From: Kiritimatiellia bacterium | Lineage (GTDB): Bacteria > Verrucomicrobiota > Kiritimatiellia > RFP12 > UBA1067 | Direction of reading: 5' to 3' | DNA: 61,015 bases | Assembly (NCBI GenBank): GCA_017652705.1 | Contig: JAGCAM010000080.1 | Coordinates: 1 to 61,015 of the forward strand | Shown: positions 44,763 to 50,576 of the stretch, piece after piece | Layout of the letters: each line of letters begins with the position of its first letter | Numbering within the stretch: the first letter of the stretch is position 1 | Translations under genes and position numbers: made by a program | The notes under the pieces: model-generated | What the model was told of the DNA's origin: nothing | Seen by the model: the letters and a program-made list of their open reading frames with translations, nothing else | Database searches by the model: none

Positions 44763-45959
44763 TTATCCGCCATCGCACCGCGGTTCCAGGTTGTTTTCGC
44801 ATCCAGGCGTCGGCGGTTCGAGCAGCACGCAGTCGCCGCAGTCCGGATGAAACCGCAGACAGCAGTCGCGATAAATCTGCAGCAGCCCCTGGATGAGCAG
44901 GCCGTTGGTCGAATAAAACGCCGCCGGGTTGTGATCCCGCCCGAACATGCGGAACGCCGTGAGACGCACCGGCTCTGAGACGTCTTCGGGCGGCAGCCAT
45001 GCCGGCGGCTCCCCCAGCCGGTTCTCGGCGAGCGCGAACGGCGCGATCACGTTCGCCAGCACAGCCGAGGCTCGTCCCCTGCCCAGATACCGCCCGCCGC
45101 ACATGGCCGCGACCATCGCCCGGCAGCCCATGACCGAAAAGTCGTCGGTCTCCGTGAATTTCATGATCGGCGTCGCGGTGAAGATGCCGGCGGCGCAGGC
45201 GAGCCGGCGTTCCGGAGTGTTGCCGGGTCTGATTCCGCGACGGTCCCATTCTTCGAAGCCGCCGGCGACCAGCATCGCCGTCTTCGCCGCCTCGCCGTCT
45301 TCGGGCAGGACGGCGATCGGCAACCGCTCGGCGACGCGGCGGAACTGCGCCTGGTTGCGCTTGTAACCGAGAGCCGTCATCACCTCCTCGTAGAACACCT
45401 GCCGCCGGTCTGCCGACGGAGCGTCCAGCCGGCCCGACATCCGCCGCGCCTTCGCCCTGAGCCGGTGCCGCCCGGCCTCGGCGAGCACCCGGCGCGCAAC
45501 GTCTGGATCGGAGCCGATTTTCGATTCGCAGGGGCGGGCGCCGGCGGGAAGCCTCGCATACGGGTATGCGGCGAGATCGATCTGCTCGGGCGAAAACGAC
45601 GTGTCGGCCATCACGAAACGCCCGATCCAGATCGTCACCGCCCCCGGCGGCAGCGACGCCGGGTCGGGGCCGCAATTCCACGTGACGTGGGCGACCACGT
45701 TGCGGTAGCACGCGTCACGGCCGTGTCCGTGCAAATCCCAGTCCGCCGGACAGAGATGCACTTCGACGTCGCCGGCGACCCGGCGGTGTTCCCGCCCGAT
45801 TTCCAGAACCGCGTTGCGGAAGTCCGGCCCCGGACCGAAGTTCCATTCGCCGGGGCTTATGACCGTCACCTCGCTGCCGCGTCTGGTGTAAAGCCTCCTC
45901 GGTCTCAGCGCCTCGTCGTACCAGATCGCCTGGACGTGCCTCTCGGTAATTTTTTTCAT
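44763..45959 (-). CDS. DUF2851-family protein
   Basis: 398 residues. The family pattern is clear in the N-terminal third: [10 protein letters not shown], then [48 protein letters not shown], and Y[10 protein letters not shown]. DUF2851 proteins have an endonuclease-like PD-(D/E)xK N-terminal fold; the spaced D, E and H residues here fit, but activity has not been shown. The C-terminal end carries [21 protein letters not shown], a Cys cluster that may bind metal. It overlaps the recA stop as ATGA, so RecA and this protein are translated from one message, hinting at a DNA-repair role (inference). Confidence 0.88.
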
Positions 45960-46936
45960 GCCACGCTTTTCACTTTTTCGACGATGCTTTCGGCGATTTC
46001 CGGGTTCGCTTTGAGAAATTCCGCCGCCGCCTGCGCCCCCTGCGCGAGCTGCACCTCACCGTAGGCGAGCCAGCTGCCGCGCTTTTCGACGACGCCGCGC
46101 GAGATCGCCGCGTCCAGAATCGACCCCTCGCGCGATATCCCGCACGAGTAGAGTATGTCGAATTCCGCGGTGGCGAACGGCGCGGCGACTTTGTTCTTCA
46201 CGACCTTCACCCGCGTGCGGTTGCCGACGACGGCGCCCTCCTTGTTCTTTATGGCCCCGATGCGCTGCACCTGCAGTCGGCAGGTGGCGTAGAATTTGAG
46301 GGCCTTCCCCCCGGGGGTGGTCTCGGGATTGCCGAACATCACCCCGATTTTTTCGCGGACCTGATTGGTGAAAATGCACAGCGTGTTCGTCCGCGAAAGC
46401 GAAGAGGCGAGTTTTCTCATCGCCTGGGACATAAGCCGCGCCTGCAACCCGACATGGGCGTCGCCGATGTCACCGTCGATCTCGGCCCGGGGGGTGAGAG
46501 CGGCGACGGAATCCACCACCACGACGTCGACCGCGCCTGATTTAACGAGCTGTTCGCAGATGACGAGCGCCTCTTCGCCGCTGTTCGGCTGGGAGACCAG
46601 CAGCTCGTCGAGATTGACGCCGATTTTCCTGGCATAGCCGGGGTCGAGGGCGTGTTCGGCGTCGATGAACGCCGCGGTTCCCCCGGCGCGCTGGGCGTTG
46701 GCGACCGCGTGCAGCGCAAGCGTCGTTTTGCCGGAAGACTCGTGGCCGTAGCATTCGACGATTCTGCCGCGGGGCAGCCCGCCCACGCCGAGCGCCATGT
46801 CCAGCGGCAGGCAGCCGGTGGAGATGACGTCGATTGATTTGTCGGGGGAATCTCCGAGACGCAGGATGGACATCTCTCCGAATTCCTTCTTGATCGTTTT
46901 CATGGCCGTTTCAAGGGCGGCCGATATTTTATTCAT
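45956..46936 (-). CDS. recA: Recombinase RecA
   Basis: 326 residues from ATG 46936 ([20 protein letters not shown]). Walker [11 protein letters not shown] (64-73), [25 protein letters not shown] (L1 region), the [20 protein letters not shown] loop L2 region, and the [11 protein letters not shown] strand are intact. It is short: RecA is normally about 340-355 residues, and the acidic C-terminal tail that restrains filament formation is absent (the end is [14 protein letters not shown]). RecA catalyses homologous pairing and LexA-type cleavage. It lies between yraN (35-base gap) and DUF2851 (4-base overlap). Confidence 0.97.
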
Positions 46937-46971
46937 TTTCAACCTTTCCGCCGGGCATGCAGCGCCGGCCG

Positions 46972-47406
46972 TCAGTTCCATTTTACAAACCGGCCGGGGG
47001 CAGCGAACAGTCCGACCCCGGCGACATGATCGACGATCGGCTTCCCGCAGCCGGGAACGCCGTATATTTCGATGACGTCGAAGCGACACGCCCCGCGCCA
47101 TCTGTTGACCCGCCGCCAGGCGTTGCACGCCCTGCGGAGATTGCACCGCTTGCGCCGGTCGACGCTGCGCAGCCGCCTCGCGTAAGGCGAAAGCCGCGCA
47201 TGCTGCTTCACCTCCACGAAGACCATCGTGTCGCTCCGGCCTTCCCAGGCGACGATGTCGATTTCGAGCCTGCCGTCGCGCTTCACCGGATGGGCGTTGC
47301 GGTCGATGATCTCGAACCCGCCGCGGCGGAGATACTCCACCGCGACGGATTCGCCCCATTCGCCGTTGGCGACGCCGACGTTGAGCCCCTCACGCCGCGG
47401 AGGCAT
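46972..47406 (-). CDS. YraN-family (UPF0102) putative endonuclease
   Basis: 144 residues. The UPF0102 pattern is visible: [27 protein letters not shown] (about 10-37), then [26 protein letters not shown] (about 43-68), giving the restriction-endonuclease-like E..D...EVK catalytic set. The family is linked to DNA processing and commonly lies near comM/rnhB; here comM is one gene away and recA is next. The C-terminal 20 residues diverge. The ATG overlaps the preceding unknown gene by 17 bases. Confidence 0.88.
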
Positions 47407-47980
47407 CGCGGAACCCTTTCGTCTGAGCCTCGTAGGCGGAGGTGTCGTGCGGAACCAGCATCGGAATGCCGAAACTCACCACGCTCATCGACCCCGAAAT
47501 CGCCTCGCAGAGGCCGACCGCCTCGGCGGGGTTGATCAGTATGCGCGAGCGCACGTCTTCGCCGCCCCCGGCCGGCGAACGGTACAGCTCCAGCGAGTAC
47601 CCGGGCAGCGGTTCGAGCACATGCCGCAGCTGGATGCTCGTCGCACCGCGCGGCGAACGGTGGTAAAGACCGTGGTCGCCGTCGATCGATTCGCACTCTC
47701 CCCGCAAAACCTGCAGGATCTTGCAAAGATCGGCGAACCCGAGTTTCACGCATATCGCGTTCTCCCAGTCAAACCGGGGAAACGTCGGGTTGGGGCCACG
47801 GCGGTCGCCGACCGTCATCTGGTTCGCCGCGCTCAGCATGATGCTCCCCTCCGTTGAATCGTGCGCCGGATGGAGCGCCATCTTGATCGCGCATCCGGTG
47901 CCTTTTGCGGTGGGGTGGTAGAACGCCAGCCTGGGCCGGTACTGGCCAGGCTGCGCGGGGGTTTTCGTCTCGTTGTTCAT
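47390..47980 (-). CDS. Conserved-looking cytoplasmic protein of unknown function between comM and yraN
   Basis: 196 residues from ATG 47980, following AAAGAAAGGAAAAAAAG; the frame extends upstream into comM, but the start here fits spacing and ribosome binding. The sequence has a compact folded feel: YRPRLAFYHPTAKGTGCAI, AANQMTVGDRR, FADLCKILQVLRGE, ATSIQLRHV, YSLELYRSP and ILINPAEAVGLCEAI. The alternation of basic beta strands and a final helix is like single-stranded nucleic-acid-binding folds (Whirly/MRP type), and its position between comM, yraN and recA would fit DNA uptake or repair. I do not recognise a named family and the fold idea is speculative. Confidence 0.75.
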   Translation of the reverse strand: MNNETKTPAQPGQYRPRLAFYHPTAKGTGCAIKMALHPAHDSTEGSIMLSAANQMTVGDRRGPNPTFPRFDWENAICVKLGFADLCKILQVLRGECESIDGDHGLYHRSPRGATSIQLRHVLEPLPGYSLELYRSPAGGGEDVRSRILINPAEAVGLCEAISGSMSVVSFGIPMLVPHDTSAYEAQTKGFRDASAA

Positions 47981-48015: not shown

Positions 48016-49563
48016 CTACATCCAGAACGAATTGTCTTCTTCGTCCAGCCTGCGGAAGGTCAAAGCCTCCATCAGATCCTCGTCGGCGACCGCTTCGCCG
48101 CCCCTCAGATCGGCGAGCGTCCTCGCCACCCTGAGCACTTTGTCGTACGCCCGGGCGGACAGATTGAGCCGTTCGATGATGCGCACCAGACGTTCCCTCC
48201 CGGCTGCGGAGAAAAGGCAAGCTTTGGCCAGATCGCGGCTGCGCACGTCGGCGTTGGTGTGCACCCCCGGCATGCCGCGGTATCGCTCGGCCTGGATCGC
48301 CCTCGCCTTCATGATGCGGCCGCGGATCGCCGCGCTCGGCTCGCCCTCCTCCATGACGGGCAGTTTTTTAACCTCCACCGGCGGCACTTCGATCTGGATG
48401 TCGATGCGGTCCAGCAGCGGGCCCGACACCCTGCTCTGGTATTTCATGACCGTGTTCTGGGAACATCTGCACGGGTGTGTCCGGTCGTTGTAGTATCCGC
48501 ACGGGCAGGGGTTCATCGCCGCCACGAGCATGAACTTCGACGGATAGTCGCACACCGCGGCAGCCCGGGACACGCCGACGTGACCGTCCTCCAGCGGCTG
48601 GCGCAGCACTTCGAGCGCGTGCCTCGGGAACTCCGCGAACTCGTCGAGAAAGAGAACGCCGCGGTGCGCGAGAGAAACCTCCCCCGGCATCGGATGCGCC
48701 CCGCCGCCGAGCAGACCGATCGAACTCACCGTGTGGTGCGGCGCGCGGAACGGACGGCGGGTGACGAACCGTCCGTCCGATTTGGCCTCCCCCGCGACCG
48801 AATGAATGCGCGAAACCTCCAGCGCCTCTTCGACTGTGAGCGGCGGCAGTATCGATGGTATTCTGCGCGCGAGCATCGTCTTGCCCGAACCCGGCGAACC
48901 TATCATTAGGATGTTGTGGCCGCCGGCCACCGCCACCTCGATCGCCCGTTTCGCGTCCGCCTGCCCTTTCACGTCCGCGAAATCGTCGTACGAAAGCTCG
49001 TCGCGGCCGACGAGATCGCCGAGATCGGTGTAATGCGCCCTGATCGTCCGTTCGCCGTTAAGATACTGAACTGCCTCCTGCAGCACGTTCACCGGTATGA
49101 CGTCTATGCCGGGAACGACGCTCGCCTCCTCCGCGTCGGCGGCGGGCACGATCACCGCGCGGCGCCCGATGCGTTTCATCTCGAGCACTATCGGCAGTAT
49201 CCCGCGCACGTGGCGCACCTCGCCGGACAGCGCCAGCTCCCCCGCCAAAGCGTACTCTTCGAGATGCGCGTTTTTGATGGCCCCCGCCGCTTTAAGCAGT
49301 GACACCGCGATCGGCAGGTCGTATATCGGGCCTTCCTTCCTGACGTCCGCCGGCGCGAGATTCACCGTCACGTCGTATTCCTTCTTCAGCGCAAGGCCCT
49401 GGTTTTTCAACGCCTTTGGTATGCGGTCCTTAGCCTCCTTGACCGCGGTGTCGGGCAGCCCCACGATCGCGAACTGCGACGTGCCGATCTGCGAGTGGAC
49501 CTCGATCTCCACCGTCCTGGCGTCGACCCCGCTGATCGCGCCGGAATAACATTTTGCCAACAT
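48016..49563 (-). CDS. comM: YifB/ComM-family Mg-chelatase-like AAA+ ATPase
   Basis: 515 residues. ComM is a hexameric helicase that extends branch migration during natural transformation. The N-terminal Lon-protease-like domain (about 1-165, FAIVGLPDTAVKEAKDRI), Walker A MIGSPGSGKTMLARR (about 217-231), Walker B HRGVLFLDEFAEF, and sensor regions are intact. A Cys-rich hairpin NPCPCGYYNDRTHPCRC follows, then SGPLLDRIDI and the C-terminal helical lid. It is the only intact gene in the window that ends in TAG. It starts 66 bases downstream of the 11-bp-phased CTTAAG repeats and probably heads an operon with the next four genes. Confidence 0.94.
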   Translation of the reverse strand: MLAKCYSGAISGVDARTVEIEVHSQIGTSQFAIVGLPDTAVKEAKDRIPKALKNQGLALKKEYDVTVNLAPADVRKEGPIYDLPIAVSLLKAAGAIKNAHLEEYALAGELALSGEVRHVRGILPIVLEMKRIGRRAVIVPAADAEEASVVPGIDVIPVNVLQEAVQYLNGERTIRAHYTDLGDLVGRDELSYDDFADVKGQADAKRAIEVAVAGGHNILMIGSPGSGKTMLARRIPSILPPLTVEEALEVSRIHSVAGEAKSDGRFVTRRPFRAPHHTVSSIGLLGGGAHPMPGEVSLAHRGVLFLDEFAEFPRHALEVLRQPLEDGHVGVSRAAAVCDYPSKFMLVAAMNPCPCGYYNDRTHPCRCSQNTVMKYQSRVSGPLLDRIDIQIEVPPVEVKKLPVMEEGEPSAAIRGRIMKARAIQAERYRGMPGVHTNADVRSRDLAKACLFSAAGRERLVRIIERLNLSARAYDKVLRVARTLADLRGGEAVADEDLMEALTFRRLDEEDNSFWM

Positions 49564-49628
49564 TGCGTCCGTGCCTTTCCGTCCCTTAGGGGAACACGGA
49601 CATTATGGCATAAAAAGAAAAAAGATGT

Positions 49629-49667
49629 CTTAAGCGAATCTTAAGCGAATCTTAAGAAAACCTTAAG
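49629..49667. repeat. Four CTTAAG boxes at an exact 11-bp period
   Basis: CTTAAG occurs at 49629-49634, 49640-49645, 49651-49656 and 49662-49667; spacers are CGAAT, CGAAT and AAAAC. The unit is palindromic and recurs once per helical turn, as in direct-repeat operators of OmpR/PhoB-family response regulators, whose tandem half-sites are 10-11 bp apart. It lies 3 bases past the stop of an OmpR-type regulator gene and 66 bases upstream of the comM start, so comM is the most likely target. Confidence 0.7.
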
Positions 49668-49669
49668 AC

Positions 49670-50344
49670 TCATTTCACAATTTTGTATCCCGAAAGCCTG
49701 TCGTTGACTATGCAGCCAGCGGCGACGCCGAGCTTGCGGCGCAAGTTGTGCACATGCACGTAAACCATCCCCTCTTCGCAGTCGCAGTCCCTCCCGCGCA
49801 GACCTTCCACGATTTCCGCCTTGGTCAGAAAACGTCCGGCGGAGGCGGCGAGCAGCCGCAGGATGCCGCCTTCCGTCCGCGTGAGTTTTTCTTCGCCGCC
49901 GGCGCCGCCGGCGACCGACAGCGAATCGAGATCGACCTTCACCCTGCCGAGTTTCAGAACCGCCGACACGCTGTCGAAATCCTCCGTGCGCGACAGCGCC
50001 CGGCGCACGCGGGCGAGCAGCACCGCCTCGTCCGCGTCTTTTGAAATGTAGTCGTCGGCGCCGAGCCCGATGCCCCGCACCTGATCCGCCTCGGAATCCT
50101 TGGCGGTCAGAAATATAACCGGCAGCAGACGGTCGCCACCGCGGATTTCTTCGCAGACGCGAAAGCCGTTCATCCGCGGCATCATCACGTCGAGCAGCAC
50201 GAGATCGGGACGGCGCTCGGCGATTTTCTTCAGGGCGTCGTCGCCGTCGCGCGCGGTGCGCACCGCGAACCCCTCGCCTGCGAGCAGCGCCTTCAGGCCC
50301 TCGCGCATCGCGCGTTCGTCGTCGACTAAGAGTATCTCGTACAT
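49670..50344 (-). CDS. OmpR/PhoB-family response regulator, orphan
   Basis: 224 residues from ATG 50344 (homology begins MYEILLVDDE). Receiver domain: acidic pair D8/D9, phospho-acceptor D52 in LVLLDVMMPRMNG, conserved Thr in FLTAKD and Lys in DYISKDADE (the Pro that usually follows the Lys is Asp here). The C-terminal winged helix (about 130-224) has KLTRTEGGILRLLAAS and the recognition region YVHVHNLRRKLG. No histidine kinase gene is adjacent, so the partner is elsewhere or absent. The rubredoxin gene lies 25 bases upstream. The CTTAAG repeats just downstream are a candidate binding site. Confidence 0.92.
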   Translation of the reverse strand: MYEILLVDDERAMREGLKALLAGEGFAVRTARDGDDALKKIAERRPDLVLLDVMMPRMNGFRVCEEIRGGDRLLPVIFLTAKDSEADQVRGIGLGADDYISKDADEAVLLARVRRALSRTEDFDSVSAVLKLGRVKVDLDSLSVAGGAGGEEKLTRTEGGILRLLAASAGRFLTKAEIVEGLRGRDCDCEEGMVYVHVHNLRRKLGVAAGCIVNDRLSGYKIVK

Positions 50345-50369: not shown

Positions 50370-50507
50370 TCACGCCTCCTGGAACTCGGACTTGCCCACC
50401 CCGCACACCGGGCAGGTCCAGTCATCGGGCAGATCTTCGAACGCGACGCCGTTGTTGTCGTCGGGGTTGTACTCCCAGCCGCAGATTTTGCAGACGTATT
50501 TCTTCAT
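50370..50507 (-). CDS. Short rubredoxin
   Basis: 45 residues, translated directly from the minus strand. [17 protein letters not shown] opens it, with CKIC (CxxCG) and later [10 protein letters not shown], the second CxxCG of the FeS4 site; EDLPDDW is conserved. Usual rubredoxins have 52-54 residues; this one lacks about seven in the loop between the Cys pairs, like the 45-residue rubredoxin known from Desulfovibrio desulfuricans. It carries one electron in anaerobic redox or oxygen-detoxification chains. It has a strong CGGAGGAG ribosome binding site, a TGATATAAT promoter, and the response regulator gene directly after it. Confidence 0.93.
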
Positions 50508-50533
50508 TTTTTCTCCTCCGTTTATTGAGGACT

Positions 50534-50542
50534 ATTATATCA
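50534..50542 (-). promoter_or_regulatory. Extended -10 promoter of rubredoxin and response regulator
   Basis: TGATATAAT on the minus strand, -10 at 50534-50539. The leader is about 20 bases with CGGAGGAG. Rubredoxin and the regulator (25-base gap) are probably co-transcribed. Confidence 0.45.
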
Positions 50543-50576
50543 TTTTTCCGGCGCGGACGCCGCGCCGCGGGCCGGC

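Follow-up and report, generated by a model that had tools for sequence, protein, structure and literature searches.

A predicted competence regulon in Kiritimatiellae whose promoter word and regulator helix very probably changed together

Four CTTAAG half-sites at exact 11-bp spacing separate comM from the gene for an OmpR/PhoB-type response regulator, here called P0001, and we consider it highly likely that this regulator acts on them to activate comM and comEC as a small competence regulon. Comparison of related genomes further indicates that the recognition helix of the regulator and the half-site very probably changed together across species, with the promoter layout kept. Four things can be read directly from the genomes: the arrays, the constant interval between array and -10 element, the pairing of comM with comEC, and the covariation of helix and word.

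Tandem half-sites for OmpR/PhoB regulators are known, as are CTTAAG-like words, namely, those of CiaR and PmrA. As far as the open-access literature that we searched shows, a competence regulon in Kiritimatiellae is new, and so is the repeated, concerted change of a word within a constant layout. A search of open-access literature, covering a minority of papers, turned up no account of a competence regulator in these bacteria.

The array between P0001 and comM

The window (the whole stretch of 61,015 nucleotides that was analyzed) carries CTTAAG at 49629, 49640, 49651, and 49662, exactly as phased as the initial annotation had described, and Tandem Repeats Finder returns the array as an 11-bp repeat with 3.6 copies. 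CTTAAG occurs 8 times in the window versus 3.7 expected, and the four occurrences outside the array are scattered. The features of the locus are as follows.

49629 to 49634, minus strand: half-site 1, CTTAAG, promoter-proximal, 21 bp upstream of the -10
49640 to 49645, minus strand: half-site 2, CTTAAG, 11 bp further upstream than half-site 1
49651 to 49656, minus strand: half-site 3, CTTAAG
49662 to 49667, minus strand: half-site 4, CTTAAG, distal
49602 to 49610, minus strand: extended -10 of the comM promoter, TGCCATAAT, aligned across comM promoters of the genus
49670 to 50344, minus strand: P0001, OmpR/PhoB-type response regulator, 224 aa (Pfam and orthologues in the genus)
48016 to 49563, minus strand: comM, branch-migration helicase of transformation (Pfam Mg_chelatase, ChlI, and Mg_chelatase_C)
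46972 to 47406, minus strand: yraN (UPF0102), downstream of comM (Pfam UPF0102, 3.9e-18)
45956 to 46942, minus strand: recA, downstream of comM, start approximate (ORF translation)

Because all genes of the locus lie on the minus strand, the regulator comes first in the direction of transcription, then the array, then comM. Read on that strand, the stop codon of P0001 (49672-49670) is followed by 2 bp, the four half-sites, 21 bp into which the TG of the extended -10 falls, the extended -10, and the comM ATG (49563). The gap between array and comM ATG is 65 bp, close to the 66 bp first annotated, and the regulator gene ends 2 bp from the array rather than 3. The array had also been called the only AT-rich patch of the locus, a description that fails because a second, weaker patch (42% GC) lies at 50450-50549. 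The genes of the annotated comM-yraN-recA set are present downstream, with an additional unnamed ORF of ~197 aa (~47390-47980) between comM and yraN.

In the mechanism that we propose, the four CTTAAG sequences would be tandem operator half-sites for P0001, encoded next door. P0001 molecules would line up head to tail along one helix face, immediately before an extended -10 that lacks a good -35, and would bring RNA polymerase to comM and, by way of the identical array there, to comEC. The proximal half-site would fall at approximately -39 to -34, where class II activators bind. The original suggestion of OmpR/PhoB-type tandem half-sites agrees with their placement in the comM promoter, where they occupy the -35 zone, with the second identical array before comEC, with the layout in relatives, and with the helix covariation described below.

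The array alone does not reveal the direction of regulation, and the same regulator could instead repress comM and comEC as an anti-competence brake. CiaRH restrains competence in pneumococcus. Its sites are, moreover, near-identical to those described here (PMC3091779). Nevertheless, we judge repression unlikely, for the array stops 21 bp short of the extended -10 and overlaps the -35 zone but not the -10, an arrangement typical of activator-dependent promoters. Activation by P0001, which we infer from this geometry, would presumably serve actual DNA uptake.

A second array upstream of comEC

The genome to which the window belongs (G000) is represented by a 1.66-Mb assembly that is 67.7% complete. 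Exact CTTAAG-N5-CTTAAG matches across this assembly form only two four-copy arrays, and the reversed control pattern has 0 matches, so the array is not due to chance. The genome scan proposed in the initial annotation thus yielded one other array. This array is on a different contig (L007 10747-10785), with 33 bp between it and a comEC-type gene (L007 10819-11982; Pfam Competence PF03772, 2.5e-45), and is followed after exactly 21 bp by an extended -10, TGAGATAAT. Both arrays of this genome are therefore 21 bp from an extended -10 (TGnnATAAT), and both of the places that bear them are natural-transformation genes. A combined pattern (two half-sites, N18, and TGnnATnnT), with no mismatch allowed, recovers only the comM and comEC sites in this genome.

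When two mismatches were allowed in the array search, three more single matches appeared, scattered through the genome. These near-matches and the lone CTTAAG sequences of the window were rejected as further sites, since they are scattered and do not exceed the control. A scan of viral contigs for three half-sites gave 51 contigs, which were set aside because the word by itself lacks specificity. Matches to the promoter pattern outside Kiritimatiellae (in a cyanobacterium, Ruminococcus, Paenibacillus, and others) were set aside as likely chance or CiaR-like sites. Separately, at L007 10807-10821 the predicted comEC -10 ends 6 bp before the ATG, and provided that the start codon is correctly assigned, comEC may have a leaderless transcript.

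Conservation of layout and change of word

The relatives compared were 61 genomes of the same genus, a set of incomplete metagenome assemblies of Kiritimatiellae, several of which come from ruminant guts. A CTTAAG pair is found in 12 of the 61; some of these have it upstream of comM, others upstream of comEC, and G000, G033, G066, and G081 have CTTAAG arrays before both. The regions upstream of comM, compared in 56 genomes, show why CTTAAG is missing elsewhere: almost every one carries 11-bp repeats in the corresponding position, but their word differs by species (CTTAAG, TGTAAC, TTCAAC, GACCC, CGTAAGG, CTTTAGG, and others). What is conserved upstream of comM, a comparison that the initial annotation had called for, is accordingly the layout, whereas the CTTAAG word itself changes. 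Two of the refuting conditions set in that annotation, a lack of further arrays in the genome and a lack of conservation in relatives, are thereby answered.

The comM promoter usually retains both the 11-bp repeats and a fixed distance to the extended -10, whose key positions are T in 93%, G in 93%, A in 97%, and T in 97% of the aligned comM promoters of the genus. For 45 comM promoters aligned on the extended -10, identity is 0.566 at lag 11 and 0.464 at lag 22, compared with 0.21 to 0.29 at other lags. The best lag is 11 in 39 of these 45 promoters, and the mean for random windows taken from these loci is 0.26. Arrays in this lineage have up to six half-sites, and in many of them the outer half-sites are inverted about the center (e.g., CTTAAG-AAAT-CTTAAG with mirrored flanks, or GTTAC...GTAAC). 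The comM promoters of five related families of the same order have no array, so that, within the present sampling, the system arose in this lineage.

Where comEC has a promoter array of its own, this array mostly bears the word of the same species' comM promoter. Matching words include GGACACATT in G079, GGACACT in G003, CTTTAGG in G077, CGTTAGATAT in G074, GATTCACTTTC in G014, TCATCAGG in G016, and CGCTGAG in G020. In a register-free test of 36 genomes (strict promoter calls reached only 10), the best 18-mer common to the comM and comEC promoters had 14.2 matches within genomes versus 12.5 between genomes (permutation p 5e-5), and the sharing persisted when the CTTAAG genomes were removed. 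Exceptions are G023, G030, G061, and G068, in which the comEC promoter lacks the comM word, and comEC lies directly behind another gene in many genomes. By comparison, dprA is present in 56 of the 61 genomes, and its promoters have no array wherever the dprA start is readable; in those genomes dprA is, by its predicted promoter, outside the regulon.

Slippage could create 11-bp tandem repeats, and a phage has entered comM in G061, so the repeats might be thought a structural or mobile element (a phage attachment site, a terminator, or a product of tandem-repeat slippage) rather than an operator. This explanation is scarcely credible given that the period and the -10 distance persist while the word differs between species, that the unlinked comEC carries the same word as comM, that the outer half-sites are often inverted about the center, and that the word covaries strictly with a protein helix.

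The regulator P0001

P0001 has a receiver domain and a DNA-binding domain (Pfam Response_reg PF00072, 5.4e-33, and Trans_reg_C PF00486, 6.1e-13), both above cut-off, and its closest solved relatives are RegX3, MtrA, and PhoP. The translation and the RegX3 and MtrA alignments place the receiver residues D8, D9, and D52 and the conserved Lys of DDYISK where expected. The predicted phosphorylation residues are thus intact, and phosphorylation would control the regulator. The recognition helix spans residues 190-206, EEGMVYVHVHNLRRKLG.

Orthologues of P0001 form one clade within the genus. They adjoin comM in at least eight genomes (G000, G023, G027, G033, G064, G068, G077, and G079), and in many others the clade regulator lies away from comM. 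G066 has CTTAAG arrays, yet its assembly, 64% complete, yielded no clade regulator. No kinase motif was detected beside the clade regulators of the genus, G006 excepted, and the relatives of the kinase beside the G006 regulator are at other loci, with no consistent linkage through the genus. The earlier idea of a two-component switch of competence and repair genes is well supported in its competence part, given the comM and comEC arrays, whereas a partner kinase was not identified and co-control of recA and yraN is not supported.

As a side observation, some response-regulator paralogues run on into a putative FolK (dihydropterin pyrophosphokinase) domain, assigned by motif. These odd fusions occur in G019, G061, and G004 (L207 812-2017, L211 1056-2144, and L227 1532-2638).

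Covariation of recognition helix and half-site

Residue 195 of the clade regulators varies with position 9 of the half-site: Y or H goes with G, and R goes with C, in 29 of 29 non-redundant genomes. This count left out three genomes without a recognizable array and allowed a half-site register shift of 1 bp in five genomes, which could slightly favor agreement. Residue 200 varies with half-site position 5 (N mostly with T, and R with G), and H197 goes with C at position 4. A regulator tree of 42 tips has zero discordance and at least four independent switches of residue class. The distant members G005, G028, G059, and G018 have in common both a helix core, RSQISRLK, and a word, TTCAAC.

G080 provides a comparison within one genome. 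It has two paralogues, one of the Y class (L112) and one of the R class (L203). CTTAAG stands in the comEC promoter of this genome and TCACG repeats in the comM promoter, so each class has one paralogue and one promoter. Together, the covariation of helix and word and the pairing in G080 link protein and site at the level of sequence.

Each genome encodes one to several OmpR-type paralogues, including a second full-length one in G000 (L035), and the P0001-clade regulator is not next to comM in many genomes. The array might thus be the operator of another paralogue, with P0001 adjacent by chance. We regard this as very unlikely: it is the P0001-clade helix that covaries with the words, while the L035-type helix is near-constant (RTIDVQVANLRRK in G000, RTIDVQIANLRKK in G066, and likewise in its relatives) although comM words vary, and the adjacency of P0001 orthologues to comM recurs in at least eight genomes. 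P0001 itself is the better candidate for the protein that would bind the array.

Accessory genes, mobile elements, and implications

Arrays also precede accessory genes in G064, G061, and G009. Five ORF6N genes of G064 (L046, L048, L049, L050, and L051) have the same array promoter as comM and near-identical first 40 codons, after which they diverge. The arrays of G061 (L041, L043, and L044) and G009 (L054) lie before genes of accessory, mobile-type families: a 23S-IVP-like four-helix protein, a RhuM-family gene, an IS200-type transposase, and an ORF6N gene. Also in G061, a prophage-like element of ~38.5 kb (L201 5273-6868 and L202 14883 onward; contig C85, 81273 to 119886) appears to split comM at approximately codon 45, and just within its left end is a tyrosine integrase (PF00589, 2.9e-24). 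We speculate that mobile elements are behind the fast change of word, as this phage and the array promoters of the ORF6N, RhuM, and transposase genes might indicate.

Tentatively, a regulator with few operators might be seen as a fast-changing lock and key, in which, within one genus, the word was replaced many times in step with a few helix residues and at two or more promoters at once, and in which selection may drive the change. Such selection might insulate paralogues from one another or allow escape from mobile elements that use the promoter for themselves or integrate into comM. If this reading is true, the lineage offers a naturally evolved recognition code for OmpR/PhoB regulators.

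For these uncultured bacteria, the analysis supplies a concrete regulator, two predicted direct targets, and a promoter rule. The dozens of natural regulator-site pairs, with one layout and differing words, constitute a data set on how the OmpR/PhoB helix reads DNA, in which residue 195 predicts one base without exception and residue 200 fits the contact of PhoB Arg201 with guanine. How a transcription factor changes its word yet keeps its regulon becomes testable.

Comparison with known systems

CiaR of Streptococcus, an OmpR-family regulator, has the site NTTAAG-N5-TTTAAG (PMC3091779), and so has nearly the same hexamer, the same 11-bp spacing, and a position just upstream of the -10. The CiaR two-component system also affects competence. 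However, CiaR sites consist of two half-sites of which the last is 10 bp from the -10, whereas the arrays described here have up to six, and in the comM promoter the distance is 21 bp, one 11-bp unit further and on the same helix face. Across streptococci, the word and helix of CiaR, which has the kinase CiaH, are conserved. In the present system the two vary inside a single genus, and the predicted direct targets are comM and comEC.

PmrA of enterobacteria recognizes the box CTTAAG-N5-XTTAAT (PMC3973317), with the same half-site and spacing. Its winged-helix domains bind head to tail. Unlike the present system, PmrA uses two half-sites, controls polymyxin-resistance and envelope genes, and has a known partner kinase; the likeness noted here is one of half-site, spacing, and binding mode.

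PhoB has the same architecture as P0001 but governs the phosphate regulon and reads a different word. The pairing of R with G at residue 200 has a structural precedent, because PhoB Arg201, with which we take position 200 (N200 in P0001) to align, contacts guanine; the strongest-covarying residue, 195, presumably aligns with PhoB Asp196. The PhoB contacts quoted in PMC3973317 are those of Arg201 with guanine and of Thr194 and Val197 with thymine. The covariation at position 200, R with G and N with T, is as the PhoB contact predicts.
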